A DNA stretch of 64,000 nt from Bacilli bacterium. Lineage in GTDB: Bacteria > Bacillota_I > Bacilli_A > ML615J-28 > CAG-313. Shown here piece after piece: positions 24,201 to 45,262 of this stretch. Location of the stretch: assembly GCA_017501465.1 (NCBI GenBank), contig JAFVWY010000015.1, positions 1-64,000 of the forward strand, read 5' to 3'. The position numbers and the translations under genes are program-made. How positions within the stretch are numbered: position 1 is the first letter of the stretch; every line of letters starts with the position of its first letter. Under the pieces are notes generated by a model. The model saw only the letters and a program-made list of their open reading frames with translations. It was not told the origin of the DNA and searched no databases.

Positions 24201-27200
24201 CACTATTCTTGGGGCTCTAATTGTAGAACTAATATCGAAAATTGTGCAACAATAGATACAAGTATAATTGCTAATGCCAGTGTTGATAATGCCATAGCAT
24301 CTGGTATTAATGGTTATATGTATAGAGGTTCTATTGTAAATTGTTATAGTAATGCTAAACTATATGCATCAAGTGGTGGAACTGCGAGAAAGTACGGTAT
24401 TGGAGGAAATCCTAATGTTACACCTTCTAACTCTTTCTATGTAACTCAAAACGCTAATAATCCTGTCAGTAACGGAACTGGACTTGATTTTGGACCTAAG
24501 GAAATAAATGGAGCTAATAATAATACTGCTGTTGACTTATTTACTGCGATGGGTAATGATTATAAAGGTTCTAATAAATATTATATTGTTTTAGAAGATT
24601 CTGACATTTTTAAAGTAAATATTCCTAATAATGGTAATGTTACTATGTCTCATGATGGAGATAATAACATTTCAAATAATGCTGATATTTGGATTAATAT
24701 GCTAAGTGGTGGTAGTGCAACTGCTCCTACATCTGCAACTTATCCAAATGATGAGGCTCGTCATGATGCTGGTTGGTTTAAACTAGGTACTGTTTTAACT
24801 TATAGAGGAGAAGCTAAAATTGGTGGAACTATTACTAGTCCTACTGTTACATATCCTCAAGGAAGTAAAGAATTTGTTTATAATGCTTCTCTTAATAGAT
24901 TTGATAACTTAAATTATCCATATGATTATGTTGCAAACACTCAATATGAAAATATTGGTTATACAGAAGCTTCATCTACTACTACTTTAAATGGTGTATT
25001 ATTTGGAAATAAATATACAATTAAAGTAAGAGATAATATTCCTCAAATTAAATTTGTATTTAGTTTGCCTACTACCACATCTACTTTAACTCCAGTATTC
25101 TTTAATAGTACTGGTGGAACTTTAGATTTAACAAGTAGTATTGGTACTTATACATTTGAAAATACTGTTGAAACTGATAAAATTGTATATGAATTAATTT
25201 TTACTCCAAATACTGAAATTGAAAAAGATACAATTGTTAATATTGCATTTAAAGTTGGTACAACTGATGATTACTTAACTAATGGTTTCCAATTAGATAT
25301 TAAAGCAAATACAAGAAGCATTAAATATGTTACATATGCTGAATATACTCCACCAATTAATTATCAAAATAAAGTCGATGCTGATGGTGATGTTCTTGGT
25401 AGTGCTGGTAACTATTATATGTTAAAGAGAGGTTCTACTACAAAATTAATTCCTGTATTTACAAGAGCAAACGATTTACCAATTGGTTTTGATACTAATG
25501 GTGATCCAATTTATCCTGAATATAATAGTGAATTAAACGTTGACTATGTTACATATACTTTAAGTAATAATGTTGGTACAATGAAAACCAATGGTGAGTT
25601 TGTTGCTTCAACAAGTACTGGTAATAATAATACATATAATATCAAAGTTGCCTTAAAAACCGGAAGTGATAGTGAAACTGTTTACTTTAAGTTTGTTGAC
25701 AATGTAAACGTAACATATACTTCTATTGGTAGTGATATTAGTGCATTAACTTATGCTACTAAAGATGCTGATTATGTATTAGAAAGTAAGAATTTAGATC
25801 ACTATGGTGGTTTACCTAAGTTATTCAATGTAACAATTAATGATACAGTTTATAGTGCTAGTCAAATATTGACTTTAGGTTGGATTCAAGATGAATCTGG
25901 TAATAAGCTAAGTAGTTGGGATCTTGAAAGAACTTATTATAAGTTAGTAATTCCAAGTTCAAGTATCAATGGTAATATTAGTGTTGATATTGAAATGAAT
26001 GTTGTTTATACAATTAAGTTTGATTTACAATGTGCTACATTTAATTCTAATTATACAGGTAATCAAGTATTAGAATTTAAAGTAGTTGCAAATACTACAT
26101 TTGCTAACTTCTTTACAGCTGAAAAATTAGCAGAAGTTGAAGCTTTCCAAAATGGCGCAACATCTGTAATACAAGGATATTTATGTACTGGATTCTTCTT
26201 AGTAAGTGAGGCAAATTCTAGTTCTTCATATGGTGTTAAGTTTGATGAATTAAAAGCATCTTCAATTGCAATTAATACATCTTATACATTCTATGCAAGA
26301 TGGAATTTCTTAATTGAATTAGTAGAAGCTCCAGGTACACATATTCAAACAAGTTTCTCATCATCATTCATGTTAGAAATTACAGAAACTGAATATGATG
26401 AATATGTTAATAGAACTGTTGCAGTTCCAATTAACGCTAAAAAAGGTTATGTATTTACTGTAGTTAAAGATGAAGGTTTCGTAGGTGAGGCTGATGTTAA
26501 AGCTTACATCATCTCTAATAAAGGAACTGGAACAGAAACAATTACGGAAATCACGGTTGAAAAATATCACGAAGATATGTATTTATACTTCATACCACCA
26601 GAAAAGATTACAGGTTACTTAGTAATTGTTACATCAGTAAGTAATTCTGAAGTTATCGTTGGTGAAAATACTTCACAAGTTGTTGATGAAGTATTACCAC
26701 AAGATGGTATTTATACATTTAAATATGCTGTTAACCACAAGAATACTGTTGATGAAAATGGTTTTATTGATCAATCATTTATCTACGATAGTGGAATTAG
26801 TGGTCAAAAGAATAGAAACTTAGGTTTAACTAAAGATATCTTTATTCAATTTATTACACCAGTATTTGATAATACTAGTAATAAATTAGAAATTACTGAT
26901 AAGTATTTGCCTAAGGGTACGATAATTGAAGTTTATTACAATTTATATGTTGATAATAATCTTACTCCTACTAAGTCAGTTATTGGTTCATATGTTGTTG
27001 ATAATACTACAACTAAAAATGTTTTATTAAGTCAATTTAAACAACTTAATAATGATACAGCTGCTTTTGGTGTAGAAACATTTGAGCAATTCCTAAGTGG
27101 TAAAAAGTATGCATCTGAAGTTTATTACTTTGTTGTTACATTACCTAATGGATATGATGTAGCTGCTAATGAAGATGGTTTTGGTAATATTAATAATGAA

Positions 27201-28262
27201 TTAATCCTTGTTGGTTATTATGATCCAACAAAACCTGCTGAATTAAAGACAGAAGGTTTTGAACAATATGACTATTATGTAGAAGGTAAGAGAACAAGTA
27301 AAGAATTTGCTAATATTCCAATCGAAGGAAATAAAGACAAATTTGATGTTTTCACAAGTGAAACTTCTCTTCAACAAAAACTTTATTCTGCAACTCCTTC
27401 TAGAGATACTTACCTAGAAAAAGATGGTGATACATATACATTCACAGATAATAAGAATTTTAATTACATGAATGTAACAGTATCTAGTGGTAGCGTAACT
27501 AATGGTAAGATTAATATGTATGATGGTGTTGTTGATGGCTCTGTTAAGAATACTGTTGTTACATCTGGTTTAATTGAATACGGAATTTCTAAATTAACTT
27601 TAGAATTAGGTTATTCAATAGGTCAAGTAGAAATCTTAGGTAGCATCGATGGTGTTACATATGAACCTATCGAAACTATTAATGTTGATGAGATCAGTTA
27701 TAAAGAATACACAGTAGACTTTACTAATAAAGCTGAACTATATTATTACTTTAAGATTGATAATAAAGCTTTAAGTGAAATAAGAATTGGTAAGATGATT
27801 TTAACTGATTGCTATTTCGTTCGTGACTATGATATTTCACCTACTACATTTAAATATGTAAAAACTACTGGTAATGATGCATTATATAATGTAGTTCAAA
27901 CAATTGTTGGTGACGTAAGACACGATGGTAAATTATTCATGCTTGCAGTTCAATTTAAGAACTCTTCTAATATTGTACAAAATATTGATGATATTACACC
28001 TATTGTTTTAAATGTTACTTATGTTGATGAAACAGGTACTACTAAGAATACAACAATTAGTTGTAACTTGGAAAAAGTTCCTGGTAAGAATGTTTTATAC
28101 TTTAATTTAAGTAACTTAATTAATAGTTTAAATATCACTTCATTTGATTTTACGATTAGTGCTTTACCTAGTGGTTATTCAATTAGTACTGTTCAATTAA
28201 TTGAAACAAGTATTGCTGAAAAACCAGCTATGGGTGAAGTAAGAGTATCTTATATTTACTAA
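21252..28262 (+). CDS. Giant surface protein with GLUG-like repeats (2336 aa)
   Basis: The largest gene of the window. A signal peptide or anchor helix (about 8-32, then SVKAE) is followed by a beta-rich N-terminal region, then about fifteen GLUG-like repeats between residues 330 and 1025 (YAGGLAG, YSGSIAG, YTGLLAG, YVAGLIG, FAGGFIG, YCGGLIG, YVGGLLG, FVGGLLG, IASGING), which fold as a beta-helix in known adhesins. The second half has Ig-like and InlB-type stretches (YTFYARWNF near 1675). There is no LPXTG motif, membrane anchor or dockerin at the end (VRVSYIY), so it is probably held by the N-terminal helix, by other proteins of the locus, or released. AAAGGAG precedes the ATG. It closes the locus. 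Confidence 0.72.
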   Translation: MKNGTKKFYLLGSIVTSMLIICVAVLIGVLAIKDRSVKAETTDSYEVVIERVSTVTVYVAGSGVKLVESAHPSDDHSGVIHDLYHVEKNTQISLIAVNEAKVFTSWNVLEKDGETSYGTDINGSTSQKLTFNVTKDAVVSVNRRDTTTSDMGRYMTNRFIISEAKDLYLLQEAFELGRNVTTNTKIYDSLVDSEDITIIDYYDSLFKEDETWQTYTTNNQKIAAINRANTGYFARLQNGYYLVSQNFAYLDKDNTMPFVGIGNETYPFQGVMCGLNNNAISTISLIIQDTQKNGTRYYGLFGYLGENAVVRNLSVQTSIGISAAATATTSTIYAGGLAGRMNKAFLYNVDALSRNSIDINVNGTSTVYSGSIAGYMNGGIEEYAEVIANGTDAGWVIQSNHTSTSIYTGLLAGYASDTYVNDIELKVAGYAATVKNSTDNNNDFKVFMGNLFGRYETTTSNPDTNKLYLRNIRITGNAAQNLTALIDRGNAYVAGLIGYVNSTNENILIGKVNFQITNKDVTSRITATAIDSESQANMYTAGLFAEVVSNKLSATDDFKQGITQLEVDGKKYYRYDFIFNGNYYIESINNGVCSTTTGKTISAGLVAHGLFNINGTDDKKSNILVSSEDYDLTIKATQTSISNGGSHTVDHCMAALFTAYISTSAYDYTFSNINIFTNNSNVTTTRELSSKAIGDLHSGYFMGYSKDTNYNNINLYVNDSILRVDSLSYDAKLSNVGNSAFAGGFIGELDGDSNANKATMTNIILTGFDYKTGFNDDGSIKNPVGTTLQLTAIQNTQAGGGDYRGENYCGGLIGLTRLSNISNSQYIGSESDVDFIQMQGHQSPDSAFCGGLIGFSKNELTSGITIEITNCKVKNANVYGAATVTTQYDNPDIYVGGLLGAIYYNNTGTISINNCSVQNSKIQGIANERIELFVGGLLGCFTWNGTCNISNSYVYGCEISANQKTTSNVDDHNAYAAGISARSHYSWGSNCRTNIENCATIDTSIIANASVDNAIASGINGYMYRGSIVNCYSNAKLYASSGGTARKYGIGGNPNVTPSNSFYVTQNANNPVSNGTGLDFGPKEINGANNNTAVDLFTAMGNDYKGSNKYYIVLEDSDIFKVNIPNNGNVTMSHDGDNNISNNADIWINMLSGGSATAPTSATYPNDEARHDAGWFKLGTVLTYRGEAKIGGTITSPTVTYPQGSKEFVYNASLNRFDNLNYPYDYVANTQYENIGYTEASSTTTLNGVLFGNKYTIKVRDNIPQIKFVFSLPTTTSTLTPVFFNSTGGTLDLTSSIGTYTFENTVETDKIVYELIFTPNTEIEKDTIVNIAFKVGTTDDYLTNGFQLDIKANTRSIKYVTYAEYTPPINYQNKVDADGDVLGSAGNYYMLKRGSTTKLIPVFTRANDLPIGFDTNGDPIYPEYNSELNVDYVTYTLSNNVGTMKTNGEFVASTSTGNNNTYNIKVALKTGSDSETVYFKFVDNVNVTYTSIGSDISALTYATKDADYVLESKNLDHYGGLPKLFNVTINDTVYSASQILTLGWIQDESGNKLSSWDLERTYYKLVIPSSSINGNISVDIEMNVVYTIKFDLQCATFNSNYTGNQVLEFKVVANTTFANFFTAEKLAEVEAFQNGATSVIQGYLCTGFFLVSEANSSSSYGVKFDELKASSIAINTSYTFYARWNFLIELVEAPGTHIQTSFSSSFMLEITETEYDEYVNRTVAVPINAKKGYVFTVVKDEGFVGEADVKAYIISNKGTGTETITEITVEKYHEDMYLYFIPPEKITGYLVIVTSVSNSEVIVGENTSQVVDEVLPQDGIYTFKYAVNHKNTVDENGFIDQSFIYDSGISGQKNRNLGLTKDIFIQFITPVFDNTSNKLEITDKYLPKGTIIEVYYNLYVDNNLTPTKSVIGSYVVDNTTTKNVLLSQFKQLNNDTAAFGVETFEQFLSGKKYASEVYYFVVTLPNGYDVAANEDGFGNINNELILVGYYDPTKPAELKTEGFEQYDYYVEGKRTSKEFANIPIEGNKDKFDVFTSETSLQQKLYSATPSRDTYLEKDGDTYTFTDNKNFNYMNVTVSSGSVTNGKINMYDGVVDGSVKNTVVTSGLIEYGISKLTLELGYSIGQVEILGSIDGVTYEPIETINVDEISYKEYTVDFTNKAELYYYFKIDNKALSEIRIGKMILTDCYFVRDYDISPTTFKYVKTTGNDALYNVVQTIVGDVRHDGKLFMLAVQFKNSSNIVQNIDDITPIVLNVTYVDETGTTKNTTISCNLEKVPGKNVLYFNLSNLINSLNITSFDFTISALPSGYSISTVQLIETSIAEKPAMGEVRVSYIY

Positions 28263-31481: not shown

Positions 31482-32345
31482 ATGAAAAAACAAAATTTAA
31501 GTGAAAGAAAGTTTATTCAAGAACTATTAAAAGATCAAGATATTGTGTCTTTTATTGATGAATATAAAATAAGCGATGATTTATTTGATACATATTTAGA
31601 GACTTTCATGGCCTATTATGTTAAAAAAAGTGCATGTAAAAATTGTCAAGGATTAAAAAATTGTAAACAAACAAGATTTGGTTTAGCACCTATTTTAGTT
31701 AAAGATGGTGCTTATATTGATATTGATTATTTTGAATGTAGTTATAAAGAAGAAAATAATAAATTCAATAGTCCTCATCTACATTTGTATAATAGTAGTT
31801 TTATTAATGTCAATGAAAAAATATTTGTTAATGAAAATAGAGATGAAGTATTAAGATTTTATAAAAAGTTCTTAGAAAGTTATGAATCTAATCCTCATCA
31901 ATTAGGTATGTATTTACATGGAAGCTACGGAACTGGTAAAAGCTATATTATGGCAAGCCTTGCTAAAAGCTTAGCTGATAAACACGTTGATTGTGCCTTC
32001 GTATATTATCCTGATTTTGTCAGAATGGTTAAATCAATGATTTTAACAGGAGGGGTTAATAAGCTTGTTGATGAACTAAAAAGAGTTCCTGTTTTATTCT
32101 TAGACGACTTTGGTGGTGAAAGTAATACTAACTTTATAAGAGATGAAGTATTATTACCGATTTTACAATACAGAATGGTTAATAAATTACCTTTATTTAT
32201 TACATCTAATCTAAGTGATAAACAAATTGTTGATCATTTAGCTGAATCTTCAAAAGATATTGATGTCATTAAAGCATCAAGGGTATTTGAAAGAATCAGA
32301 TCTTTAGTAGTATTTAAAGAATTAAAAGATAAGAATTATCGATAA
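31482..32345 (+). CDS. dnaI: DnaI helicase loader (AAA+ ATPase)
   Basis: A 287-residue primosomal protein. The N-terminal zinc domain has Cys52, Cys55, Cys61 and Cys86; the C-terminal AAA+ domain has Walker A GSYGTGKS (147-154), Walker B LFLDD (205-209), a sensor in PLFITSN and an arginine finger near RVFERIRSL. It opens and loads the hexameric helicase during replication initiation. It is the last gene of the operon before a perfect terminator. Confidence 0.93.
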   Translation: MKKQNLSERKFIQELLKDQDIVSFIDEYKISDDLFDTYLETFMAYYVKKSACKNCQGLKNCKQTRFGLAPILVKDGAYIDIDYFECSYKEENNKFNSPHLHLYNSSFINVNEKIFVNENRDEVLRFYKKFLESYESNPHQLGMYLHGSYGTGKSYIMASLAKSLADKHVDCAFVYYPDFVRMVKSMILTGGVNKLVDELKRVPVLFLDDFGGESNTNFIRDEVLLPILQYRMVNKLPLFITSNLSDKQIVDHLAESSKDIDVIKASRVFERIRSLVVFKELKDKNYR

Positions 32346-32372
32346 AAAGGAAGTGTATACTTCCTTTTTTTT
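32344..32372 (+). terminator. Terminator after dnaI
   Basis: AAAAAGGAAGT pairs with ACTTCCTTTTT around GTAT, followed by T. Confidence 0.9.
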
Positions 32373-32391
32373 CTATATATAGATGAATCAT

Positions 32392-32420
32392 TTGAAAAAT
32401 ATGTCGAATAATGGTATAAT
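32392..32420 (+). promoter_or_regulatory. Promoter of the acyl-ligase operon
   Basis: TTGAAA, 17 bases, TATAAT, with TG one base before the -10. No other promoter or terminator is evident until 40268, so eight genes should be co-transcribed. Confidence 0.65.
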
Positions 32421-32453
32421 AGGAAGTAATATTTATATATTTTGAGGGAACTT

Positions 32454-34388
32454 ATGGAAAATATAAATAAGATAATTAGAAACCATATGAAGATATTAGA
32501 TAACTCAAATAAAAGCTTTCAAGATATCTTTGAAATTGTTTTTAGTTTAGAAAATAATATCTTTTTTGAATTAACTGATGGTTATCGAATTAAGAAAGTA
32601 ACTTATAAAGAAGCAAAACAAAATGCTATTTTAATGGGATGCTATCTAAAAGAGTTATTAAAAGATAAAGAACAAAATAGTTTTATTGGTTTAATGATGG
32701 ATAATTCACCACTTTGGGTATATACATTTTGGGGCTTATTAATGGCTGGTTTTAGACCAATGTTAATAAATATTCGCCTTGGCGATATGTTAAATAATGA
32801 TATTATCAAAATGTTAGATATCCAAACCATCATAAGTGATAATAATTATGAATTAAATTGCGAAGTTATTAATATATCTTTAGTTGATGTTGAAAAAATA
32901 GAATCAAAAGATATTTTATTTAAGTGGGCTAATGAAATAGCGGTATCAACTAGTGCTACGACTTTAAATGTGAAGGTATGTATTTATAAAGGTCAAGACA
33001 TTGCTTGGCAAATTAAAAATACCAAAAAGATTGTTAAAACTAATAATCATATTAAAAAACCTTATAAAGGTTCCATTAAGATTATGGCCTTCTTACCTTT
33101 TTATCATGTTTTTGGTTTGATTGCAACTTATTTTTGGTTTTCATTTTTCGGTAGAACTTTAGTATTCTTAAAAGATTATTCGAACGATACCATCTTAAAA
33201 ACGGCTAAAAAACATAAGGTTACGCATATTTTTGCAGTACCAATGGTTTGGAATGCTGTTTGTAAGGGTATCTTAAAAGAAGTTAATACTAAAGATGAAA
33301 AAACCAAGAAAAAGTTTGAAAAAGGTCTTAATATTTGTTTAAAACTACAAAATATTTTTCCTAATTTTGGTCTTGTCTTAACGAGAAAACTAATGAGTGA
33401 GGTTCAAAACCAAGTTTTTGGTAAATCTATTAAGTTTTTAATTACTGGTGGAGGCTATATTTCACCTAATACTTTAAGAGTATTAAATGGGGTTGGGTAC
33501 CCATTATATAATGGTTATGGTATGAGTGAAATAGGTATTACATCGGTTGAACTTCGAAAGAAAGCTAAATATCGTTTATTAGAATCAATTGGTAAACCTT
33601 TTGAATTTATTGATTATAAAATTGAAAATCAAAAACTATATGTTAAGAGTTTATCTTTATGTAGTAAAATCATTTCTAAAAATGGCGTAATTGATGTTGA
33701 CCATGATGAATGGTTTTGTACAAATGATTTAGCAACTGTTGATAAATTAGGTAATTATTATATTTTAGGCAGAAGCGATGATGTTATCGTATCTTCTAAT
33801 GGAGAAAAATTTAATCCTGATTTAATTGAAAAGAAGATGGTTTTTAATCATGTTTTAAGATATTCAGTACTTGGTATGGAGGAAAATGGCGTTTTAAATT
33901 TAAGTTTAATTTTGGAAGTAAACAAAAATATGTCTTCTTTAAAAATAAATCACCTAATTGAAGAAGTATCAAAAAACGCTAAAAATAATAATATTGAAAA
34001 AATTTATTTTACTTATGATGAAATAGCAGCCAAAACGGCTATTAAAGTAAGTAGAAGTATTTTAAAGAAAAGAATTGAATCAGGTATTGTTAATTTAATT
34101 TCATTTAATGATTTTAAGAAGAGTTTGGAAAATCTTAATGAAAATCTTAATGAAGAATTAATTAATGAATTAAAGAAAATATTCGGATATGTTTTAAATA
34201 AAGATTATCAAAGTATTGGTGTTGATGAACACTTCATCTTTGATCTTGGTGGAACAAGTTTAGAATATTTAACACTTTTGGTTAAATTGAAAGAGATCTA
34301 TGAATTAGACTTTAATTCTACTAATTCTGCAAACTATACTGTATTAGAATTCAGTAAATATATTATGAGTAAAGAGGGAAAAGAATAA
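32454..34388 (+). CDS. AMP-forming acyl ligase with a C-terminal carrier domain
   Basis: A 644-residue protein of the ANL superfamily. The adenylation part has an aromatic/small stretch MAFLPFYHVFGLI, the core YNGYGMSEIG, and CTNDLATVD plus LGRSDDVIVSSNGEKFNPD. The phosphate-binding A3 motif is degenerate: STSATTLNVK (about 165-174) replaces the usual TSGTTGxPKG. Residues about 560-644 form an acyl/peptidyl carrier domain with the phosphopantetheine serine in DLGGTSLEY (Ser602). The enzyme probably activates a carboxylic acid and loads it on its own carrier. Start chosen at the ATG after GAGGGAA; a TTG at 32442 is also in frame. It is the first gene of the operon and abuts the transporter gene. 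Confidence 0.8.
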   Translation: MENINKIIRNHMKILDNSNKSFQDIFEIVFSLENNIFFELTDGYRIKKVTYKEAKQNAILMGCYLKELLKDKEQNSFIGLMMDNSPLWVYTFWGLLMAGFRPMLINIRLGDMLNNDIIKMLDIQTIISDNNYELNCEVINISLVDVEKIESKDILFKWANEIAVSTSATTLNVKVCIYKGQDIAWQIKNTKKIVKTNNHIKKPYKGSIKIMAFLPFYHVFGLIATYFWFSFFGRTLVFLKDYSNDTILKTAKKHKVTHIFAVPMVWNAVCKGILKEVNTKDEKTKKKFEKGLNICLKLQNIFPNFGLVLTRKLMSEVQNQVFGKSIKFLITGGGYISPNTLRVLNGVGYPLYNGYGMSEIGITSVELRKKAKYRLLESIGKPFEFIDYKIENQKLYVKSLSLCSKIISKNGVIDVDHDEWFCTNDLATVDKLGNYYILGRSDDVIVSSNGEKFNPDLIEKKMVFNHVLRYSVLGMEENGVLNLSLILEVNKNMSSLKINHLIEEVSKNAKNNNIEKIYFTYDEIAAKTAIKVSRSILKKRIESGIVNLISFNDFKKSLENLNENLNEELINELKKIFGYVLNKDYQSIGVDEHFIFDLGGTSLEYLTLLVKLKEIYELDFNSTNSANYTVLEFSKYIMSKEGKE

Positions 34389-36283
34389 TGAAACGAAAAG
34401 TTACTTTAGATAAGAAGTGGAAAGAGATATTATTTGGTGCATCTGGGTTTGGTCCTAACCTTATGATGATTTTAATGGGGGCATTCTATAGTGATGCGGT
34501 TAATCCGGGATCTTTAAATACTAACGTATTACAAAGTATTACTGGAACATGTTTAATTTTACCAGCTGCATTTTCTATTTTAATGATGCTTGCTAAAATT
34601 TTTGATGGTATTATCGATGTTCCACTAGCAGCTTTAACAGATGGAATTAAGAGTAAGTTTGGTAAGAGAAGATTACCAATTGCAATAAGTTTTATTCCAA
34701 TGGTATTATCATACATTGCTTTATGGATTCCACTTAGTCAAACTAACCAAACAGCTAATACTATTTGGTTTGTATGTATGACTATCATTTTCTATGGAAC
34801 ATATACAATGGGTTTAATTGCTTTTTATGGTAGTTTATCTACTGTTTGTCATGAAGAAAGTCAAAGATTAAGAGTAGCAAGTTTTAAATCTTTCTTTGAT
34901 ACTATTACTTATATTATTGTTTATGCTTTAGTACCATTACTACTTGGTGTATTTAATGTTCATATTGATAAACTTGCTTTAATGCTTACTCCTTTAATGG
35001 CTACTTTAATTATTCCTATCTTTATGATTAAAGAAGGAGAAAAATATGAAAAGAAAGCACTTGAAGAAGGTTATGATATTACTCCACTTGTTGAAGAAAA
35101 ACATGTTGGTATCATTGAAAGTATTAAATTAACATTTACTAATAAACCATTCTTAAAATGGCAATTGGTAAATTCATGTACATTCTTTGGTTTACAAATG
35201 TTCTTAGTTTCAATGAATGCATTAATTGTTGGTGGTATGGGCTTATCTAATGGTCAAATGGCAATTCTTAATACTTGTGCATTCGCTCCAGTTCCTATTA
35301 TGCTTTATTTATTTAATAAATTAAAAGCTAAAAAAGGTACTAGATTTACTTATCAATCTTGTTTAATTTGTTTTGCTATTTGTATTATGAGTTTTGTCTT
35401 AGGTAATGAATTTGTACTTGGCGAAGGACATACTACATTAAAGATTATTATTGGCTGCTTAGGTGGCGTTTGTGGTTCTTGGTCAATTGGTACATTCTTT
35501 ATGATGCCATATTTAATTCCAAACCAAGTATCTGCAGTTGAAGAAAAACTAACTGGTAAAAATCACTCTGCAATGTATTTTGCTGGTCAAGCATTATTTT
35601 CAAGCGTAGCTGGTGCTATTGCGGTTGCTGTATATGACATTATTAAGAATTATTTTATTACTAAAGATTTCTCACAAATCGTCTATGCTGAAGGCACACA
35701 AATTGCTGGGAAAGTGGTTTTAGCAAGAGATGTTGCTGCGATGAAACTTGGTGTACTTTCTAATCAAGTATTTAATCTAGGAACACTTGTAGTACCATTT
35801 GTTGTTTCGCTATTTTGTTTATTTGGTTTCTTATTAGCATTTAAGATGACTAAGAATGGTTCACCAAAAGAACTAGCTATAGAAATGAATTTAGAAAAAG
35901 AATATGAAGAAAATAAACACTTATTCCCAGAAGAAAAATCAACAATTTATCCTGATGAAAGTTTAATTGTTAATACTGCCTTATGGGTATTAAGTGGTTC
36001 AATCTTTGGTGTTGTTTGGAAACATGGTATTATTAAATCAGTTAATACATTCAACAATAAGAAGATTCATTGGCTACATTGGGTAATTTCAATTCTTCTT
36101 CCACCTTATAGTGCATATGTTCTATATCGCGTAGAAAAAGATGTTTTATCTCAAACATTTAGTCAAATAAAATTAAAAGATTATAGTATCCTTTGTTTAA
36201 TTTTTGGATTCATTGGCCTTGGTATTGTTCCAATGTTTATCATCCAAAGACAATTAAACAAACTAATCCAAGATCATGAGTAA
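34388..36283 (+). CDS. GPH/MFS-type transporter with a C-terminal extension
   Basis: A 631-residue polytopic membrane protein of the MFS_2/GPH (melibiose carrier-like) family, with the loop signature DVPLAALTDGIKSKFGKRRLP. The core of about 480 residues is followed by an extra region (from about 500) with two or three further helices (ALWVLSGSIFGVVW, HWVISILLPPYSAYVLY, CLIFGFIGLGIVPMFII). MFS_2 members include sugar symporters and lysolipid carriers such as MFSD2A and LplT-like proteins, so transport of a lipid or lipid precursor would fit the operon. This is inference. It overlaps the next gene by 8 bases. Confidence 0.75.
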   Translation: MKRKVTLDKKWKEILFGASGFGPNLMMILMGAFYSDAVNPGSLNTNVLQSITGTCLILPAAFSILMMLAKIFDGIIDVPLAALTDGIKSKFGKRRLPIAISFIPMVLSYIALWIPLSQTNQTANTIWFVCMTIIFYGTYTMGLIAFYGSLSTVCHEESQRLRVASFKSFFDTITYIIVYALVPLLLGVFNVHIDKLALMLTPLMATLIIPIFMIKEGEKYEKKALEEGYDITPLVEEKHVGIIESIKLTFTNKPFLKWQLVNSCTFFGLQMFLVSMNALIVGGMGLSNGQMAILNTCAFAPVPIMLYLFNKLKAKKGTRFTYQSCLICFAICIMSFVLGNEFVLGEGHTTLKIIIGCLGGVCGSWSIGTFFMMPYLIPNQVSAVEEKLTGKNHSAMYFAGQALFSSVAGAIAVAVYDIIKNYFITKDFSQIVYAEGTQIAGKVVLARDVAAMKLGVLSNQVFNLGTLVVPFVVSLFCLFGFLLAFKMTKNGSPKELAIEMNLEKEYEENKHLFPEEKSTIYPDESLIVNTALWVLSGSIFGVVWKHGIIKSVNTFNNKKIHWLHWVISILLPPYSAYVLYRVEKDVLSQTFSQIKLKDYSILCLIFGFIGLGIVPMFIIQRQLNKLIQDHE

Positions 36284-36905
36284 ACCATTTTCTTGGTTCA
36301 CTAAAATAACTGGTTTTATCCCTCAATTATTTTACTTAAGAAGAAAAACAATCTATGTAAATAAAGAAATTCAAAATAGAAAAATCAAAGAACCAGCTGT
36401 TATCATTTCTAATCATACGGATTTATTTGATTTTGGCGTTTATATGTTTACTTTTTTTAATGCGACGATTTGTCCATTAGTAGCTGAAATAACATATGAC
36501 AAAAACAAAATTATGAAGTTTTTAATGAAACACTGGGGAGCTGTTAGAGTTGATCGTGAGTCATATGATTTTAGTTTCATGAGTGAATTAATTGAAAAAT
36601 TAGATACTGGCAATTCTATTATAATTTTCCCAGAAGGAAGAATTCCTAAAAAAGATGAGGGATTATTGCCTTTTAAACCTAGTTTTATTTATGTTGCGAA
36701 AGAGGCTAATGTGCCAATCATTCCAACTTATACAACAGGTAAATATGGTAGTGGTAAAACAAGAGTTGTTATCGGTGAAAAAATATACGTAAATGATTTA
36801 TATGATAAGAATTTATCAGAAAAAGAAAATATAAATAATATTTGTTTATATTTTGAAAATTATGTTAAAAAATTAGGTGAAATTGCTAATGAAGAAAAAA
36901 AGTAA
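36276..36905 (+). CDS. PlsC-family acyltransferase 1
   Basis: A 209-residue glycerolipid acyltransferase with the catalytic NHTDLFD motif (His47, Asp52) and FPEGR (118-122). Family members acylate lysophosphatidate or other hydroxyl acceptors using acyl-ACP or acyl-CoA. Both overlaps with neighbours (8 and 17 bases) indicate tight coupling. It differs clearly from the following second copy, so the two probably act on different acceptors or positions. Confidence 0.85.
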   Translation: MSKPFSWFTKITGFIPQLFYLRRKTIYVNKEIQNRKIKEPAVIISNHTDLFDFGVYMFTFFNATICPLVAEITYDKNKIMKFLMKHWGAVRVDRESYDFSFMSELIEKLDTGNSIIIFPEGRIPKKDEGLLPFKPSFIYVAKEANVPIIPTYTTGKYGSGKTRVVIGEKIYVNDLYDKNLSEKENINNICLYFENYVKKLGEIANEEKK

Positions 36906-37539
36906 ATTTTTACAAATATTTGATGTAAGTATGTTTTTATATGATTTTTTAAAGCTATTAGCTGTTCCATCCGTTATTATATTTAATCGATTAAAAAGAT
37001 ATTATATTGATAAAAACGTAAAAAAAGATTTAAGAAGAAAACCCTATCTAATTACTTGTAATCATACAGGTTATTTAGATGTTATAATTGTTTCAAATAC
37101 TTTTTGGAATCGAAGAATAAGATATGTTGCGACAAAAGCCTTATTTAGTAACTGGTTTCGTAACTTAATGTTTAAAATATTTAGATGTATTCCCATTGAT
37201 AAAGATAATGTATCAATGGCATCATTTAAAGAAGTGAAGAAAACTATTGATTCTGGTCATTGTGTGGGTGTATTTCCTGAAGGTACCATTGAAAGAACGG
37301 GTGAACTTATGCAGTTCAAATCAGGAGTTGTGTTGATGGCTATTATGTCTAAAGCTCCAATTGTTCCAATGTATATTGAAAAAAGAACAAAGTGGTATAA
37401 AAGACAAAGAGTTGTTATTGGTACCTTGATTAATGTCAAAGATTATATAAGTGGTCCAGTAGCAACGATGGATGAAATCAATAATATTGCAAAAATGTTA
37501 TTTGAAAAAGAACAAGAACTTAAAAATAAGTTAAATTAG
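36889..37539 (+). CDS. PlsC-family acyltransferase 2
   Basis: A 216-residue acyltransferase with NHTGYLD (His59, Asp64) and FPEGTIERTGE (129-139), closer to the canonical PlsC pattern than the preceding gene. An N-terminal hydrophobic helix (about 14-33) should attach it to the membrane. Start chosen at the ATG, with AGGTGA upstream; a GTG at 36877 is in frame. It lies between acyltransferase 1 and a second acyl ligase, so an acyl-carrier substrate made in the same operon is likely. Confidence 0.85.
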   Translation: MKKKSKFLQIFDVSMFLYDFLKLLAVPSVIIFNRLKRYYIDKNVKKDLRRKPYLITCNHTGYLDVIIVSNTFWNRRIRYVATKALFSNWFRNLMFKIFRCIPIDKDNVSMASFKEVKKTIDSGHCVGVFPEGTIERTGELMQFKSGVVLMAIMSKAPIVPMYIEKRTKWYKRQRVVIGTLINVKDYISGPVATMDEINNIAKMLFEKEQELKNKLN

Positions 37540-37549
37540 GAGAATATTA

Positions 37550-39061
37550 ATGGAAAACATTTTAAAATATAGTCAAGTAGAAATATTTGAAAAGTTACCA
37601 AAGTTATCACATATGGCTAACTTTTTAGAAGATATTCATTCGTGCTATGGTGATAAGGTTGCAACTATTGATGCCTTTGGTGCTAAAACGTATAATGATT
37701 TATACACTGATACTTCTAAAATTGTTACAATTTTAAATCATATTGAGGCTAAAAAACATGTTGTTGTGTATTGTCAAAATAACTACAATTTTGTAAGAGT
37801 TGCTTTAGCTATTATGGCAAGTGGTAAAGTTGCGGTATTATTGCCTGCTCAATTAGATGATAAAACTTTATATGGATGTCTTATGAAATATCAAGCATCT
37901 GCTATTGTTTTTGAAAATGCTACTAAAGCAAACACTATATTTGCTAGTCAAATGTTACAAAATGTAGAATTTTATAATATTGATGAAGTTGACTTTGATA
38001 GTATCGAACAATCAAGTTATAATTTTGATATTAATGAATTAGATCCTGCTTGTATTGTGTTAACTGGCGGAACAACTGGTAGATCAAAAGGTGCGATTCT
38101 TTCTCATAAAGCATTACTTACTGGTACTAAAAATGGTATTTATGCGGTTCCATATGTATTTGATGAAACATACTTTTCTATCATTCCTTTGACTCATGTT
38201 TTTGGATTAATCCGAAATTTACTAACATGTTTATATACTGGATGTAAAGTTGAATTCTGTATTGATATGAAAGGAATGTTTAAACAACTTCCTGTTGCTA
38301 AACCTTCTATTTTAATCTTAGTTCCAGCTCTTGCTGAATTATTTTTAAATTTAATCAAACAATTCGGTATGGGTATTGTTGGTGGTAATTTAAAAATGAT
38401 TATCTGTGGTGGTGCTAGTGTTCCTCCATATTTAACACTTGAGTATGATAAACTTGGTGTTAAAATGTTCCCAGGTTATGGCTTAACAGAATCTGCGAAC
38501 TTAGTATCAGGTAATCCTAATCAAATTGAAAAACCATTTTCAGTTGGACTTTTATATCCAGGAATTGAGGTTAAAGTTGTTGACCAAGAGTTATGGTTAA
38601 AAGGCGATAATATGATGAGTGGATATTTCAACGAACCAACAGAAAATGAACTTGCATATTCTGATGGATGGTTTAAGACAGGGGATTTAGTTGAGTTTGA
38701 TGAAGAAGGTTTCTTATACATTATTGGCCGTATAAAAGATATTATTATTCTATCAAATGGAGAAAATGTATCTCCTGCCTATGTAGAAGCTAAAATTAAT
38801 GATATTGAAGTGGTTCAAGATTCACTTGTTAGATCTTTTAAAACAGAAATTGGAACAGAAGTTTTAGCAGTAGAAATCTTACCTAGAAAATCAGAAGTAG
38901 TTAAACTTGGTATTACTGATTTAGAAAGTTATCTTCAAAGTGAAATAGATAAAGTTAACGAAACTTTACTACCACACGAAAGAATTCAAAAAATTATTAT
39001 TAGAACAGAAGACTTCAAGAGAAGTCCAAGTATGAAAATTATTAGACCACGTGGTGAATAA
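37550..39061 (+). CDS. AMP-forming acyl ligase (acyl-ACP/CoA synthetase)
   Basis: A 503-residue ANL enzyme with intact core motifs: LTGGTTGRSKG (171-181), GYGLTESAN, and WFKTGDLVEFDEEGFLYIIGRIKD followed by the hinge and SPAYVE. It activates a carboxylic acid as its adenylate and transfers it to a thiol. Because a free carrier protein gene follows at once, acyl-ACP ligation is the best guess. The terminal catalytic Lys is probably the one in PSMKIIRP. AGGAG precedes the ATG. Confidence 0.85.
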   Translation: MENILKYSQVEIFEKLPKLSHMANFLEDIHSCYGDKVATIDAFGAKTYNDLYTDTSKIVTILNHIEAKKHVVVYCQNNYNFVRVALAIMASGKVAVLLPAQLDDKTLYGCLMKYQASAIVFENATKANTIFASQMLQNVEFYNIDEVDFDSIEQSSYNFDINELDPACIVLTGGTTGRSKGAILSHKALLTGTKNGIYAVPYVFDETYFSIIPLTHVFGLIRNLLTCLYTGCKVEFCIDMKGMFKQLPVAKPSILILVPALAELFLNLIKQFGMGIVGGNLKMIICGGASVPPYLTLEYDKLGVKMFPGYGLTESANLVSGNPNQIEKPFSVGLLYPGIEVKVVDQELWLKGDNMMSGYFNEPTENELAYSDGWFKTGDLVEFDEEGFLYIIGRIKDIIILSNGENVSPAYVEAKINDIEVVQDSLVRSFKTEIGTEVLAVEILPRKSEVVKLGITDLESYLQSEIDKVNETLLPHERIQKIIIRTEDFKRSPSMKIIRPRGE

Positions 39062-39062
39062 G

Positions 39063-39311
39063 ATGACACAAGATATAATTATTGAAAAATTAAAAAATAT
39101 TTTTAAGCTAGTAGTTAATCCTAATGCTAATTTAGATGATGTATCAATAGATGCCAATATCACAAAAGATTTAGGAATTAATTCTGTTGGTTTAATTTAT
39201 TTAGTTGTTGGTATTGAAGAAACATTTAAAATCGATATGAGTGATGTTACCTTTAATACTTTTAATACTATTTCTGAAGTAGTAGAATATATTCAAAAAA
39301 AGGTGAAATAA
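39063..39311 (+). CDS. Acyl carrier protein
   Basis: An 82-residue carrier protein with the phosphopantetheine attachment site in DLGINSVGLIYL (Ser41), an acidic helix II, and the usual four-helix length. It starts one base after the stop of the acyl ligase; an in-frame GTG at 39051 is an alternative. It differs from housekeeping ACP (DSL replaced by NSV), as dedicated pathway carriers often do. It presumably receives the acid activated by the adjacent ligase. Confidence 0.87.
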   Translation: MTQDIIIEKLKNIFKLVVNPNANLDDVSIDANITKDLGINSVGLIYLVVGIEETFKIDMSDVTFNTFNTISEVVEYIQKKVK

Positions 39312-39312
39312 A

Positions 39313-39720
39313 ATGAAAAAGTGGGATATGATAGAACCATACTATGGAGCGCACATTAGAGTAGAAATTGGGAAACTATATCATCATGGTATTTATGTAG
39401 GAAACGATGAAGTAGTTCAATTTGGTCTACCAATGGATGTTTATCGCGATCCAAAAACCGTAAAGGTAATTAAATCACCTATTAGCGAATTTCTTGGCGG
39501 GGGCTTCTTAGAAGTTAGAAGATATGATAGAAAAGAGTTAAAACAAAAAAACTCTGATGAAGAAATTGTTAGAATTGCTTTATCAAAGTTAGGTGAAGGT
39601 GATTATAATATTTTAACAAATAATTGTGAACACTTTTGTAACTTTTGTATCTTTGGTAAAAAGATATCTACCCAAGTTGATTCTGTTCATGATGAGGTTA
39701 GAAAGAAACTAGGATTATAA
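39313..39720 (+). CDS. LRAT-fold (NlpC/P60-clan) protein
   Basis: A 135-residue protein of the lecithin:retinol acyltransferase family: HHGIYVG with the catalytic His25, and NNCEHFCNFC with the nucleophile Cys105. LRAT-type enzymes move acyl groups between lipids through an acyl-cysteine intermediate or act as phospholipases or amidases. No signal peptide, so it acts in the cytosol. Within an acyl-activation operon it is a plausible third acyl-transfer or acyl-release enzyme. It starts one base after the ACP gene stop. Confidence 0.8.
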   Translation: MKKWDMIEPYYGAHIRVEIGKLYHHGIYVGNDEVVQFGLPMDVYRDPKTVKVIKSPISEFLGGGFLEVRRYDRKELKQKNSDEEIVRIALSKLGEGDYNILTNNCEHFCNFCIFGKKISTQVDSVHDEVRKKLGL

Positions 39721-39721
39721 G

Positions 39722-40285
39722 ATGTATAAAATCTATATTAAGAATGTTTCAGAAATTGATACATCTTTACTATCTATTAATGTGTTAGAATATTTAAGTA
39801 AATTTCATGATCAAAAAAGATATCTTCACAGTTTAAATGCCTGGTATTTATTAAGTTCTGTTTTACTTGAAGACTTTAATATTGATATTAGTAATAAACA
39901 AATTTTCATAACGCCAAATGGTAAGCCCTATATTAAAGGAATTAACTTTAGTATAAGTCATTCTAATAATTTAGTTGGTGTTATTATTTCAGATTGTATT
40001 TGTGGAATTGATATTGAAATGATTAGTGAACACATTAATCACTCTAAATTATCTTCATTTATTTTAACGAATAAAGAACTTACTTTATATAAACTAAATA
40101 AGAATAAACTAGCTTATTTTATAAAAAAATGGACCCAAAAAGAAGCGTATTTAAAGTGTTTTAATGATGGTATTAATAAACTTTCTGATTTATTGATTGA
40201 ATGTAATACAAAAACTCTTAAACTAAAAGATTCTAAGGGTAATTTATATTATTTATCATATATAGTTAAAGACCATATTTCATAA
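39722..40285 (+). CDS. Sfp-type 4'-phosphopantetheinyl transferase
   Basis: A 187-residue transferase with the motifs GKPYIKGINFSISHS, GIDIE (Asp97, Glu99) and KKWTQKEAYLKC. It moves phosphopantetheine from CoA to the serine of carrier proteins. The obvious clients are the free ACP and the carrier domain of the first ligase. It starts one base after the previous stop and ends the operon; its stop codon touches the loop of the terminator. Confidence 0.9.
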   Translation: MYKIYIKNVSEIDTSLLSINVLEYLSKFHDQKRYLHSLNAWYLLSSVLLEDFNIDISNKQIFITPNGKPYIKGINFSISHSNNLVGVIISDCICGIDIEMISEHINHSKLSSFILTNKELTLYKLNKNKLAYFIKKWTQKEAYLKCFNDGINKLSDLLIECNTKTLKLKDSKGNLYYLSYIVKDHIS

Positions 40286-40299
40286 ATATGGTCTTTTTT
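40268..40299 (+). terminator. Terminator of the acyl-ligase operon
   Basis: AAAGACCATATTT pairs perfectly with AAATATGGTCTTT around a three-base loop, followed by T. It overlaps the end of the PPTase gene. Confidence 0.9.
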
Positions 40300-43109: not shown

Positions 43110-43338
43110 ATAAATGTAATGATTAGGACATGGTTATTAAACACCGTTTTATTAGTGAAGCTTGATAGTGAAAAAAGCTAAAAGAGGATTAATAATTACT
43201 ACCTATGAACAGCTCTAAGAAATTAGTGGCCGGTACAACCCGTTATCGTTGAATAGAGGAAAGAATATTTATTCTTTTAAATTAAGGTGGTACCACGAAA
43301 ATTTTCGTCCTTATAGATTTATCTATAAGGCGTTTTTT
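43110..43338 (+). promoter_or_regulatory. T-box riboswitch of thrS
   Basis: The leader has the T-box sequence AAGGTGGTACCACG (43284-43297), which pairs with the tRNA acceptor end through the antiterminator bulge. A terminator follows: CCTTATAGAT (43309-43318) pairs with ATCTATAAGG (43321-43330), then T. The likely specifier is ACC (Thr) at 43201-43203, followed by TATGAAC as in many specifier loops. Uncharged tRNA-Thr would prevent termination and raise thrS expression. Confidence 0.9.
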
Positions 43339-43354: not shown

Positions 43355-45262
43355 ATGATTAAAATTAAATTTCCTGATGGAAAAATAGCTGAATTTGAAA
43401 AAGGTATTTCTTCTTTAGAAGTTGCTAAATCAATATCTGTTAGTTTAGTTAAAAAATGTATCGCAGCAAAAGTTAACGGTAATATTGTAGATTTATCAAA
43501 GCCAATTGAAGAAGATGCTACATTTGAATTATTAACACAAGATTCTAATGAACTACAAGATGTTTTAAATCACTCATGTGCACACTTACTTGCTCAAGCA
43601 ATTAGAGAATTGTATCCAAACTCATTATTTGGTGTAGGTCCTGCAATTGAAGAAGGTTTTTATTATGACATTGATTTAGGTGATGTTAAATTAGATTTAG
43701 AAGATTTAGCTAAAATCGAAAAGAAAATGAAAGCTCTAGCAGAAGGTAATTTTGAAATCGAAAGAAAAGAAGTATCGAAAGAAGAAGCGCTAGAATTATT
43801 TAAGAATGATAAATATAAATTAGAATTAATTAATGAATTACCTGATAATGAAACAATTACAGTTTATTCGCAAGGTAAGTTTATGGATCTTTGTCGTGGC
43901 CCTCATGTATCTAGTACTAAATGGCTTAAGAATTTTAAATTGTTAAGTGTTAGTGGTGCATATTGGCGAGGAGACGCAAAACGAGAACAACTTCAAAGAA
44001 TTTATGGTTGTTGTTTCATGAAAGAACAAGAATTAAAAGACTATTTATATATCTTAGAAGAAAGAAAGAAAAGAGACCATCGTAAACTTGGCAAAGACTT
44101 AGAATTATTCATGTTTAGTGAATATGGACCTGGTCTTCCATTTTGGTTACCTAACGGATATCAATTAAGACGTACTTTAGAAAATTTCTGGATTAAAATC
44201 CATAAAGATCGTGGCTATGTGGTAATTAACACACCAATTATGTTAAATAGAGAACTTTGGGAAACAAGTGGACACTGGGATCATTATAAAGATGATATGT
44301 TTACAATCGAAGTTGAAGAAGGAACATACGCGATTAAACCAATGAATTGTCCAGGTGCAATCCAAGTTTATAATAATAGCCTACACTCATATAAAGAATT
44401 ACCTCTAAGATATGCTGAACTTGGTAACGTACACCGCTATGAAGCAAGTGGAGCATTAAATGGTTTATTTAGAGTAAGAGGTTTCACTCAAGATGATGCA
44501 CATACAATGTTAATGGAATCACAAGTTGGTGAAGAAGTTAAACGTATTATTTCTTTATACGATTATGTATATAGTATTTTTGGCCTAAATTATTCAATTG
44601 AATTATCAACAAGACCAGATGATTTTATTGGTGATATTGAAACTTGGAATGAAGCCGAAGAGGCTTTAAAAGAAGCTTGTTTAGAAACAGGCCATGATTT
44701 TAAAATTAATCCTGGTGATGGTGCATTCTACGGCCCTAAACTTGACTTCAAATTAAGAGATTCAATGAATAGAATCTGGCAATGTGGTACAGTGCAATTG
44801 GATATGCAGCTACCTGGTAGATTTAATTGTAAGTACATTGCAGAAGATGGTACTAAAAAAACTCCAGTAATGATTCATAGAGCATGTTTTGGTTCTTTAG
44901 AAAGATTTATCGGTATTATTACAGAAAACTATGGTGGAGTATTCCCATTATGGTTAGCTCCTGTTCAAGCAAGAATCGTTCCTGTTAATAACGAATATCA
45001 TTTAGAATATGCAAAACATGTTCAAAATGTTTTAAAAGATATGGGTATGAGTGTTGAATTAGATGATCGAAATGAAAAAATGAACTACAAGATTAGAGAA
45101 TCACAAACTAAAAAGACTCCATATACTTTAATTATTGGTGACCGCGAAAGAGATGAAAACCTAGTAACTTATCGTGTTCATGGTTCTAATGAATCTGTAA
45201 CTATTTCATTAGAAGAGTTAGTTATTAAATTTAAACAAGAAATTGAAACTTTCGGTAAATAA
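43355..45262 (+). CDS. thrS: Threonyl-tRNA synthetase
   Basis: A 635-residue class II synthetase with the N-terminal TGS domain (1-60), the editing domain (HSCAHLLAQAI and DLCRGPHV metal/catalytic sites), the catalytic core (MNCPGAIQVY zinc cysteine, GLFRVRGFTQDDAH) and the C-terminal anticodon-binding domain (YKIRESQTKKTPYTLIIGDRE). All domains are complete. GGAGG lies before the ATG. Expression is governed by the preceding T-box. Confidence 0.97.
   Translation: MIKIKFPDGKIAEFEKGISSLEVAKSISVSLVKKCIAAKVNGNIVDLSKPIEEDATFELLTQDSNELQDVLNHSCAHLLAQAIRELYPNSLFGVGPAIEEGFYYDIDLGDVKLDLEDLAKIEKKMKALAEGNFEIERKEVSKEEALELFKNDKYKLELINELPDNETITVYSQGKFMDLCRGPHVSSTKWLKNFKLLSVSGAYWRGDAKREQLQRIYGCCFMKEQELKDYLYILEERKKRDHRKLGKDLELFMFSEYGPGLPFWLPNGYQLRRTLENFWIKIHKDRGYVVINTPIMLNRELWETSGHWDHYKDDMFTIEVEEGTYAIKPMNCPGAIQVYNNSLHSYKELPLRYAELGNVHRYEASGALNGLFRVRGFTQDDAHTMLMESQVGEEVKRIISLYDYVYSIFGLNYSIELSTRPDDFIGDIETWNEAEEALKEACLETGHDFKINPGDGAFYGPKLDFKLRDSMNRIWQCGTVQLDMQLPGRFNCKYIAEDGTKKTPVMIHRACFGSLERFIGIITENYGGVFPLWLAPVQARIVPVNNEYHLEYAKHVQNVLKDMGMSVELDDRNEKMNYKIRESQTKKTPYTLIIGDRERDENLVTYRVHGSNESVTISLEELVIKFKQEIETFGK

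Follow-up and report, generated by a model that had tools for sequence, protein, structure and literature searches.

A conserved acyl-activation and acyl-transfer operon of gut Bacilli and Clostridia, mostly without the FASII condensing enzyme, as a candidate module for carrier-based acyl incorporation

The LplT-Aas system is known only from Gram-negative bacteria, and a role as lysophospholipid transporters has been proposed for other MFS proteins (PMC11416262). It brings together, in one operon, an MFS transporter, a PlsC-type acyltransferase and an AMP-forming ligase that acts via an acyl carrier protein (ACP). Mitis streptococci scavenge lysoPC and GPC by means of transporters and acyltransferases that had yet to be identified (PMC6805115). 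In the Rhodobacteria, dedicated ACP/ligase pairs serve one lipid class, the sphingolipids (PMC9386255); there, a private acyl-ACP synthetase (AasR) and a private ACP (AcpR) steer free fatty acids to that class, with serine palmitoyltransferase as the acceptor enzyme. A further scavenging context is that of the FakA/FakB-PlsX pathway of the Firmicutes, which employs phosphorylation.

The operon described here lies within a 64,000-nucleotide stretch of DNA (the window) on contig 11 of a 1.56-Mb Bacilli genome that is 97% complete. It consists of eight open, co-directional reading frames (32442-40285, + strand), which adjoin or overlap one another with gaps of -29 to +10 nt, the overlapping pairs being ANL1/MFS2, MFS2/PlsCa, PlsCa/PlsCb and ANL2/ACP (Table 1). 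A dnaB/dnaI-like pair lies upstream, and a formate/nitrite-type channel gene on the other side. All eight products gave Pfam matches above the cut-off, in the order AMP-binding + PP-binding; MFS_2; Acyltransferase (twice); AMP-binding + AMP-binding_C_3; PP-binding; LRAT; ACPS. This bears out the sequence-only reading of the locus, made from the letters and their open reading frames, as a set of touching or overlapping genes for two ANL ligases, a fused and a free carrier, an Sfp-type transferase, two PlsC acyltransferases, an LRAT-fold enzyme and a GPH-type transporter. That reading had reported no ketosynthase, reductase or condensation domain, and Pfam found none in the operon, nor any thioesterase or tailoring gene, FakA, FakB or hydrolase; an amino-acid-specific or head-group gene is likewise missing from it.

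The joint presence of ligase, ACP, PlsC and transporter genes is what the operon has in common with LplT/Aas. However, its transporter matches MFS_2 only (Pfam) and not the LplT family, its ligase and PlsCs are separate genes rather than an Aas fusion, and it contains, in addition, a pair of PlsCs, a pair of carriers and the LRAT and Sfp enzymes. Since the transporter family differs and there is no fused Aas, the operon is LplT/Aas-like in logic but fails the defining features of that system. FakA and FakB adjoin the cassette in most related loci, whereas the window operon lacks them and carries AMP-ligases, predicted to act onto ACP, instead of a phosphorylation step. The pairing of a ligase with its own ACP recalls AasR/AcpR, with a PlsC pair and LRAT in the place of serine palmitoyltransferase. 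A type II FAS/PKS or NRPS cluster differs from the operon by its ketosynthase or condensation domains, and the host genome has no FabF. We found no described LRAT-ACP or LRAT-PLAAT bacterial cluster in the open-licence literature of PubMed Central, and no description of the acyl-incorporation route proposed below in open-licence papers.

Table 1. Features of the operon and of its immediate borders, in window coordinates
Feature	Position	Strand	Evidence
Stem-loop with T-run, end of upstream dnaI-like gene	32344..32369	+	Consensus match only
Sigma-70-type promoter match, TTGAAA-17-TATAAT, 11/12, extended TG	32392..32420	+	Consensus match only
ANL1: AMP-forming ligase fused at its C-terminus to a carrier domain (DLGGTSL)	32442..34388	+	Pfam PF00501, PF00550
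MFS_2 (GPH/MelB/MFSD2A superfamily) transporter (MFS2), ~130 aa C-terminal extension	34388..36283	+	Pfam; PDB profile search; residue comparison; model and fold search
PlsCa: PlsC-type acyltransferase with HX4D, (F/Y)PEG	36276..36905	+	Pfam, motifs
PlsCb: PlsC-type acyltransferase	36877..37539	+	Pfam, NCBIfam, motifs
ANL2: stand-alone AMP-forming ligase, motifs intact	37550..39061	+	Pfam, motifs
Free acyl carrier protein (DLGINS)	39051..39311	+	Pfam, motifs
LRAT/PLAAT-type cysteine enzyme	39313..39720	+	Pfam, motifs, PDB profile search
Sfp-type 4'-phosphopantetheinyl transferase	39722..40285	+	Pfam
Intrinsic-terminator-like stem-loop with T-run, at end of Sfp gene, closing the operon	40268..40296	+	Consensus match only

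One promoter and one terminator had been proposed for the operon, and consensus matches are found for both. The promoter is plausible but statistically unremarkable, since shuffled sequences hold more promoter-like sites than the region itself (78 versus 59), and the excess of terminator-like sites is weak (5 versus 2.6 in shuffles). For ANL1, ATG 32454 is more likely to be the true start than TTG 32442, because the latter falls inside the ribosome-binding site TTGAGGG; the free ACP probably starts at ATG 39063, and PlsCb possibly at ATG 36889. Elsewhere in the window, a 2336 aa ORF is located upstream of the operon (21252-28262), and a T-box leader (43110-43315, + strand; Rfam RF00230, 98.5 bits) lies just 5' of a 635 aa ORF (43355-45262).

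Scanning 84,980 species genomes revealed at least 271 places that encode ANL1 relatives, the best 80 of which were studied and screened with profiles built from the window operon and from a relative of the same order (G023). These best 80 stem mostly from Bacilli and Clostridia MAGs of gut and rumen origin, and most of the carriers are uncultured. Eight relatives of the order possess the ligase-carrier/PlsC/PlsC/ACP/LRAT core, as do most of the best 80 public loci, which include records of four of these relatives (G011, G015, G017 and G040). The full operon with its transporter was found in four members of the host's family or order (G002, G009, G011 and G040), while G015, G017 and G035 have the core without it, as does G023, where the core is spread over two contigs. 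In the latter genome, the second contig carries ANL2-ACP-LRAT, followed by a hydrolase, a DegV/FakB protein, an MFS_2 transporter, FakA and a second hydrolase. Protein identity between operons of independent genomes is mostly 35-65% and the gene order is the same, which places the operon beyond chance; scattering of the genes among relatives, named beforehand as evidence against the sequence-only interpretation, is not what the genomes display.

The composition of the best 80 loci is uneven: ACP occurs in 67, LRAT and FakA in 50 each, and ANL2 in only 18, so that two ligases, as suggested by the sequence-only reading, are not a general feature. Some PlsC gene is found in all 64 loci that have 5 kb of downstream sequence, and in 14 loci PlsCa and PlsCb form a single protein of ~425 aa. 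The fatty-acid kinase FakA, its partner FakB and alpha/beta hydrolases join the cassette in related loci. When the loci are restricted to those of 15 kb or more, none of the eight with MFS_2 directly after ANL1 has FakA nearby, whereas 41 of the 48 others do. Several carriers of the window's order possess a FakAB/MFS_2/hydrolase/PlsC set at another place in their genomes. A second full-length FakA occurs in 7 of 9 carriers versus 0 of 34 non-carriers of that order (p ~1e-6, kinship ignored). In an ANL1 tree (FastTree, with unsettled forks), Bacilli and Clostridia are intermixed and the arrangement with MFS_2 next to ANL1 is spread over several clades, which suggests transfer between classes.

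FabF (PF02801) and FabZ (PF07977) are absent from the host genome, as they are from all nine carriers of the window's order; FabZ is not an independent marker of FASII, since it adjoins FabF in relatives. The lack of FabF in these nine carriers compares with 24 of 34 non-carriers in the order (p=0.07, kinship ignored). Among genomes sampled from one clostridial order, FabF is missing in 10 of 11 carriers (defined by ANL1 matches over 450 bits) versus 100 of 234 non-carriers (p=0.002); this association likewise ignores kinship, and all of these comparisons draw on many incomplete MAGs. Among 49 other carrier genomes, 34 are devoid of FabF and 15 retain it. Hence, most of the carriers tested are without the FASII condensing enzyme. 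FASII loss looks common in the sampled clostridial order, that of G108, where FabF is missing from 110 of 245 genomes (requested completeness of at least 80%).

The reading that we place slightly on the favourable side of even is that of a dedicated module by which gut Bacilli and Clostridia, mostly without the FASII condensing enzyme, incorporate acyl chains by way of carriers, and which combines LplT/Aas-like scavenging with double acylation. In this mechanism we infer all substrates, the product, what the LRAT enzyme catalyses and which way the transporter works. The Sfp-type enzyme would convert both carriers to their holo forms, after which one or both AMP-ligases would adenylate acyl chains, either external or recycled from lipids, and load them onto the ACP and the fused carrier. 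PlsCa and PlsCb would transfer two acyl chains from the loaded carriers onto one acceptor, as Aas does, and so yield a membrane lipid. The Na+-type MFS_2 transporter would supply the acceptor or the acyl source, a lysolipid or glycerophosphodiester rather than a sugar, and the LRAT/PLAAT enzyme would withdraw an acyl chain from a lipid, or donate one to it, in concert with the ACP. The hydrolases and FakA/FakB found in relatives would feed into the same module. Carriers may need supplied lipids, which may partly explain why they are hard to culture.

The host genome encodes PlsX, PlsY and one FakA elsewhere, with a FakB/DegV-type ORF on the FakA contig, and six PlsC-domain proteins, of which four lie outside the operon. 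The host could therefore use exogenous fatty acids without the operon, which would then be an extra acyl-incorporation branch rather than the sole lipid route. These genes count against the module, as do the 15 of 49 carriers with FabF, the kinship and MAG limits of the FabF association, the lack of FakA, FakB and hydrolase in the operon itself, and, as discussed below, the P-loop changes of ANL1, the loss of the helix-XI Lys from the transporter and the empty single-sequence PDB search of the latter. The sequence-only reading had envisaged the activation of acids, their loading onto carriers and transfer to two positions, which might give an unusual acylated lipid or else serve as a scavenging route replacing fatty acid synthesis. 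The general idea is supported by the conservation of the cassette, its FakA/FakB and hydrolase neighbours, the PlsC-PlsC fusions and a host without FabF and FabZ, but "replacing" is too strong a word in view of the FabF-positive carriers and of the host's own PlsX, PlsY, FakA, FakB and additional PlsC-domain proteins.

A strict Gram-positive counterpart of LplT/Aas, in which the transporter would import a lysophospholipid or glycerophosphodiester for the ligase, ACP and PlsCs to acylate once or twice, is possible and, on balance, somewhat doubtful; since it is a narrower form of the module reading, the likelihoods of the two overlap. The division of labour is the same, with MFS transporter, ligase, ACP and PlsC in one operon, and both the scavenging of lysoPC and GPC by mitis streptococci (PMC6805115) and the suggestion of other MFS proteins for lysophospholipid transport (PMC11416262) leave room for such a system. 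A profile of 12 related MFS_2 proteins matched structures of the lysolipid symporter MFSD2A at 1e-16 to 1e-8 and MelB at 1e-4, whereas the sugar-type E. coli control UidB showed the reverse (MelB 1e-36, MFSD2A 1e-16); this ranking is indicative only, as UidB was a single sequence compared with a profile. As a single sequence, the transporter found no relative in the PDB. A fold search with its predicted model (pLDDT 72) scored MFSD2A and MelB alike (7e-9 and 9e-9), which does not favour the strict form, and the transporter is often absent from cassette loci with FakA nearby.

Residue comparison adds to this picture. Like MFSD2A and MelB, the transporter keeps the cation-site Asp pair and Thr (D, D and T at Asp55, Asp59 and Thr121 of the MelB Na+ site), in line with the strict reading. 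It differs in having N and L at the MelB sugar-site positions Asp19 and Asp124, S at the helix-XI Lys377, and a C-terminal extension. Asp19 and Asp124 are specific to MelB, while Lys377 is present in all five E. coli proteins compared (MelB and four controls) and is also found at the aligned position in MFSD2A; its loss speaks against the strict counterpart. A sugar transporter is disfavoured by the profile ranking and the residues, although the single-sequence search was empty and the fold scores are near-equal. The substrate is likely a non-sugar with cation coupling, and a lysolipid or glycerophosphodiester would fit. The cassette thereby offers named candidate genes both for the question of a Gram-positive LplT-Aas counterpart and for that of the streptococcal lysolipid/GPC transporter. 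The ~130 aa extension is common to the operon-type MFS_2 proteins, with predicted helices and no Pfam match, and is missing from the FakA-linked ones.

A specialised lipid pathway would read the same genes differently: ANL1, whose fused carrier is NRPS-like, would load an amino, hydroxy or aromatic acid, ANL2 would charge the ACP with a fatty acid, and both would be joined to a polar head by the PlsC pair and LRAT, yielding an aminolipid or N-acyl lipid rather than a scavenged phospholipid. We consider this unlikely. In its favour are the two distinct ligase/carrier pairs, the ANL1 carrier being of the DxGGxSL type, and the best solved relatives of ANL1 in a PDB profile search, which are MenE-type and not fatty-acyl ligases. 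PlsCb gave weak matches to lyso-ornithine lipid acyltransferases, and LRAT-fold enzymes include N-acyltransferases. A precedent for dedicated ACP/ligase pairs is provided by the sphingolipids of Rhodobacteria (PMC9386255). However, ANL2 is missing from most related loci, so that two loads are not a core feature; furthermore, the presence of hydrolases and FakAB alongside suggests fatty acids, and the operon holds no gene specific to an amino acid or head group.

The catalytic motifs of ANL1 were compared across 88 sequences (87 homologues and that of the window). The ANL1 P-loop is atypical: the window sequence reads STSATTLNVK and does not match the A3 motif (T/S)SGTTGxxK, the first Gly of the motif is Ala in 59 of 88, and the Lys is kept in 50 and lost in 38. 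The Glu of A5 (GYGxxE), the Asp of A7 and the Lys of A10 are nevertheless present in 88/88, and the Arg of A8 (GR) in 87/88. The proposal that ANL1 is a dead pseudo-enzyme was rejected as a firm claim, as the A10 Lys, required for adenylation, is invariant; the predicted ANL1 model is weak around the active site and was left out of the evidence. ANL2 retains all core motifs (TGGTTGRSKG, GYGLTE, GDL and K496), the carrier serine is present in all ACP and fused-carrier homologues compared, and NHX4D is retained in both PlsC families. The second-best NCBIfam model for PlsCb is LplT-Aas (PRK08633), under its cut-off. An intact fatty acid pathway together with inactive ligases had been named beforehand as counter-evidence; in fact, fatty acid synthesis in the host is incomplete, FabF and FabZ being absent, and the ligases retain most of their catalytic motifs.

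The LRAT/PLAAT-type enzyme shares with PLAAT/LRAT phospholipase-acyltransferases the catalytic His and the NCEHF cysteine (H24 and N-C105-E-H-F, in 57/57 of the family), and the best solved relatives of its profile are PLAAT3/PLA2G16. In contrast to these enzymes, it is coupled to carrier-modifying genes. Indeed, ACP immediately precedes LRAT in 51 of 54 cases, often with a 4-nt overlap, and in 12 loci LRAT has a C-terminal Sfp-like domain extension (confirmed above the cut-off for L168; for L163 the match fell short of it, and L141 was not reached). Both the adjacency and the fusion with a carrier-modifying domain tie LRAT to the carrier, and open-licence papers yielded no description of a carrier-linked LRAT, in some cases fused to a phosphopantetheinyl transferase. 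It is conceivable, if rather improbable, that the enzyme is a lipid:carrier transacylase, which would accept an acyl group onto its cysteine from a lipid, either imported or of the membrane, and pass it to the phosphopantetheine thiol of the ACP, or do the reverse, and so give acyl-ACP without ATP. If so, it would provide, with the transporter and the PlsC pair, a new way to build membranes from the lipids of other cells without fatty acid synthesis. Orphan LRAT genes occur in a genus without ANL1 (L084 9025 and L085 6584, in G018 and G034), the rest of the cassette not being nearby. In the whole host genome, PF01648 matched nothing but the Sfp-type enzyme, and no AcpS-type transferase was found besides it, so that this enzyme may also serve the housekeeping ACP-like protein on contig 2.

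It appears very unlikely that the host depends on the operon as its main and essential substitute for FASII. FabF and FabZ are indeed missing from the host and from the carriers of its order, but so is FabF from 24 of 34 non-carriers, and PlsX, PlsY, FakA and FakB are encoded elsewhere in the host; as sole replacement it was rejected on account of these genes, the other PlsCs and the FabF-retaining carriers. The most improbable reading is that the operon makes a small natural product or N-acyl signal for export by the transporter: the carrier-fused ligase and Sfp-type transferase resemble an NRPS-like fragment, but condensation, thioesterase and tailoring genes are lacking, PlsC is present in 64/64 loci with 5 kb of downstream sequence, and the neighbours are hydrolases and FakAB.

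Lone ANL1-like ligases of family f7 (G047, G059, G090 and G098) were rejected as cassettes, as no other core gene adjoins them, and form an outgroup. These ligase-carrier genes (L039-L042) encode 650-680 aa, have a normal or near-normal P-loop, and occur in a family without FabF. Finally, seven of the 15 FabF-positive carriers (G111, G114, G125, G126, G127, G139 and G146) possess a fused double ketosynthase, in frames of ~640-810 aa with two ketosynthase matches each.
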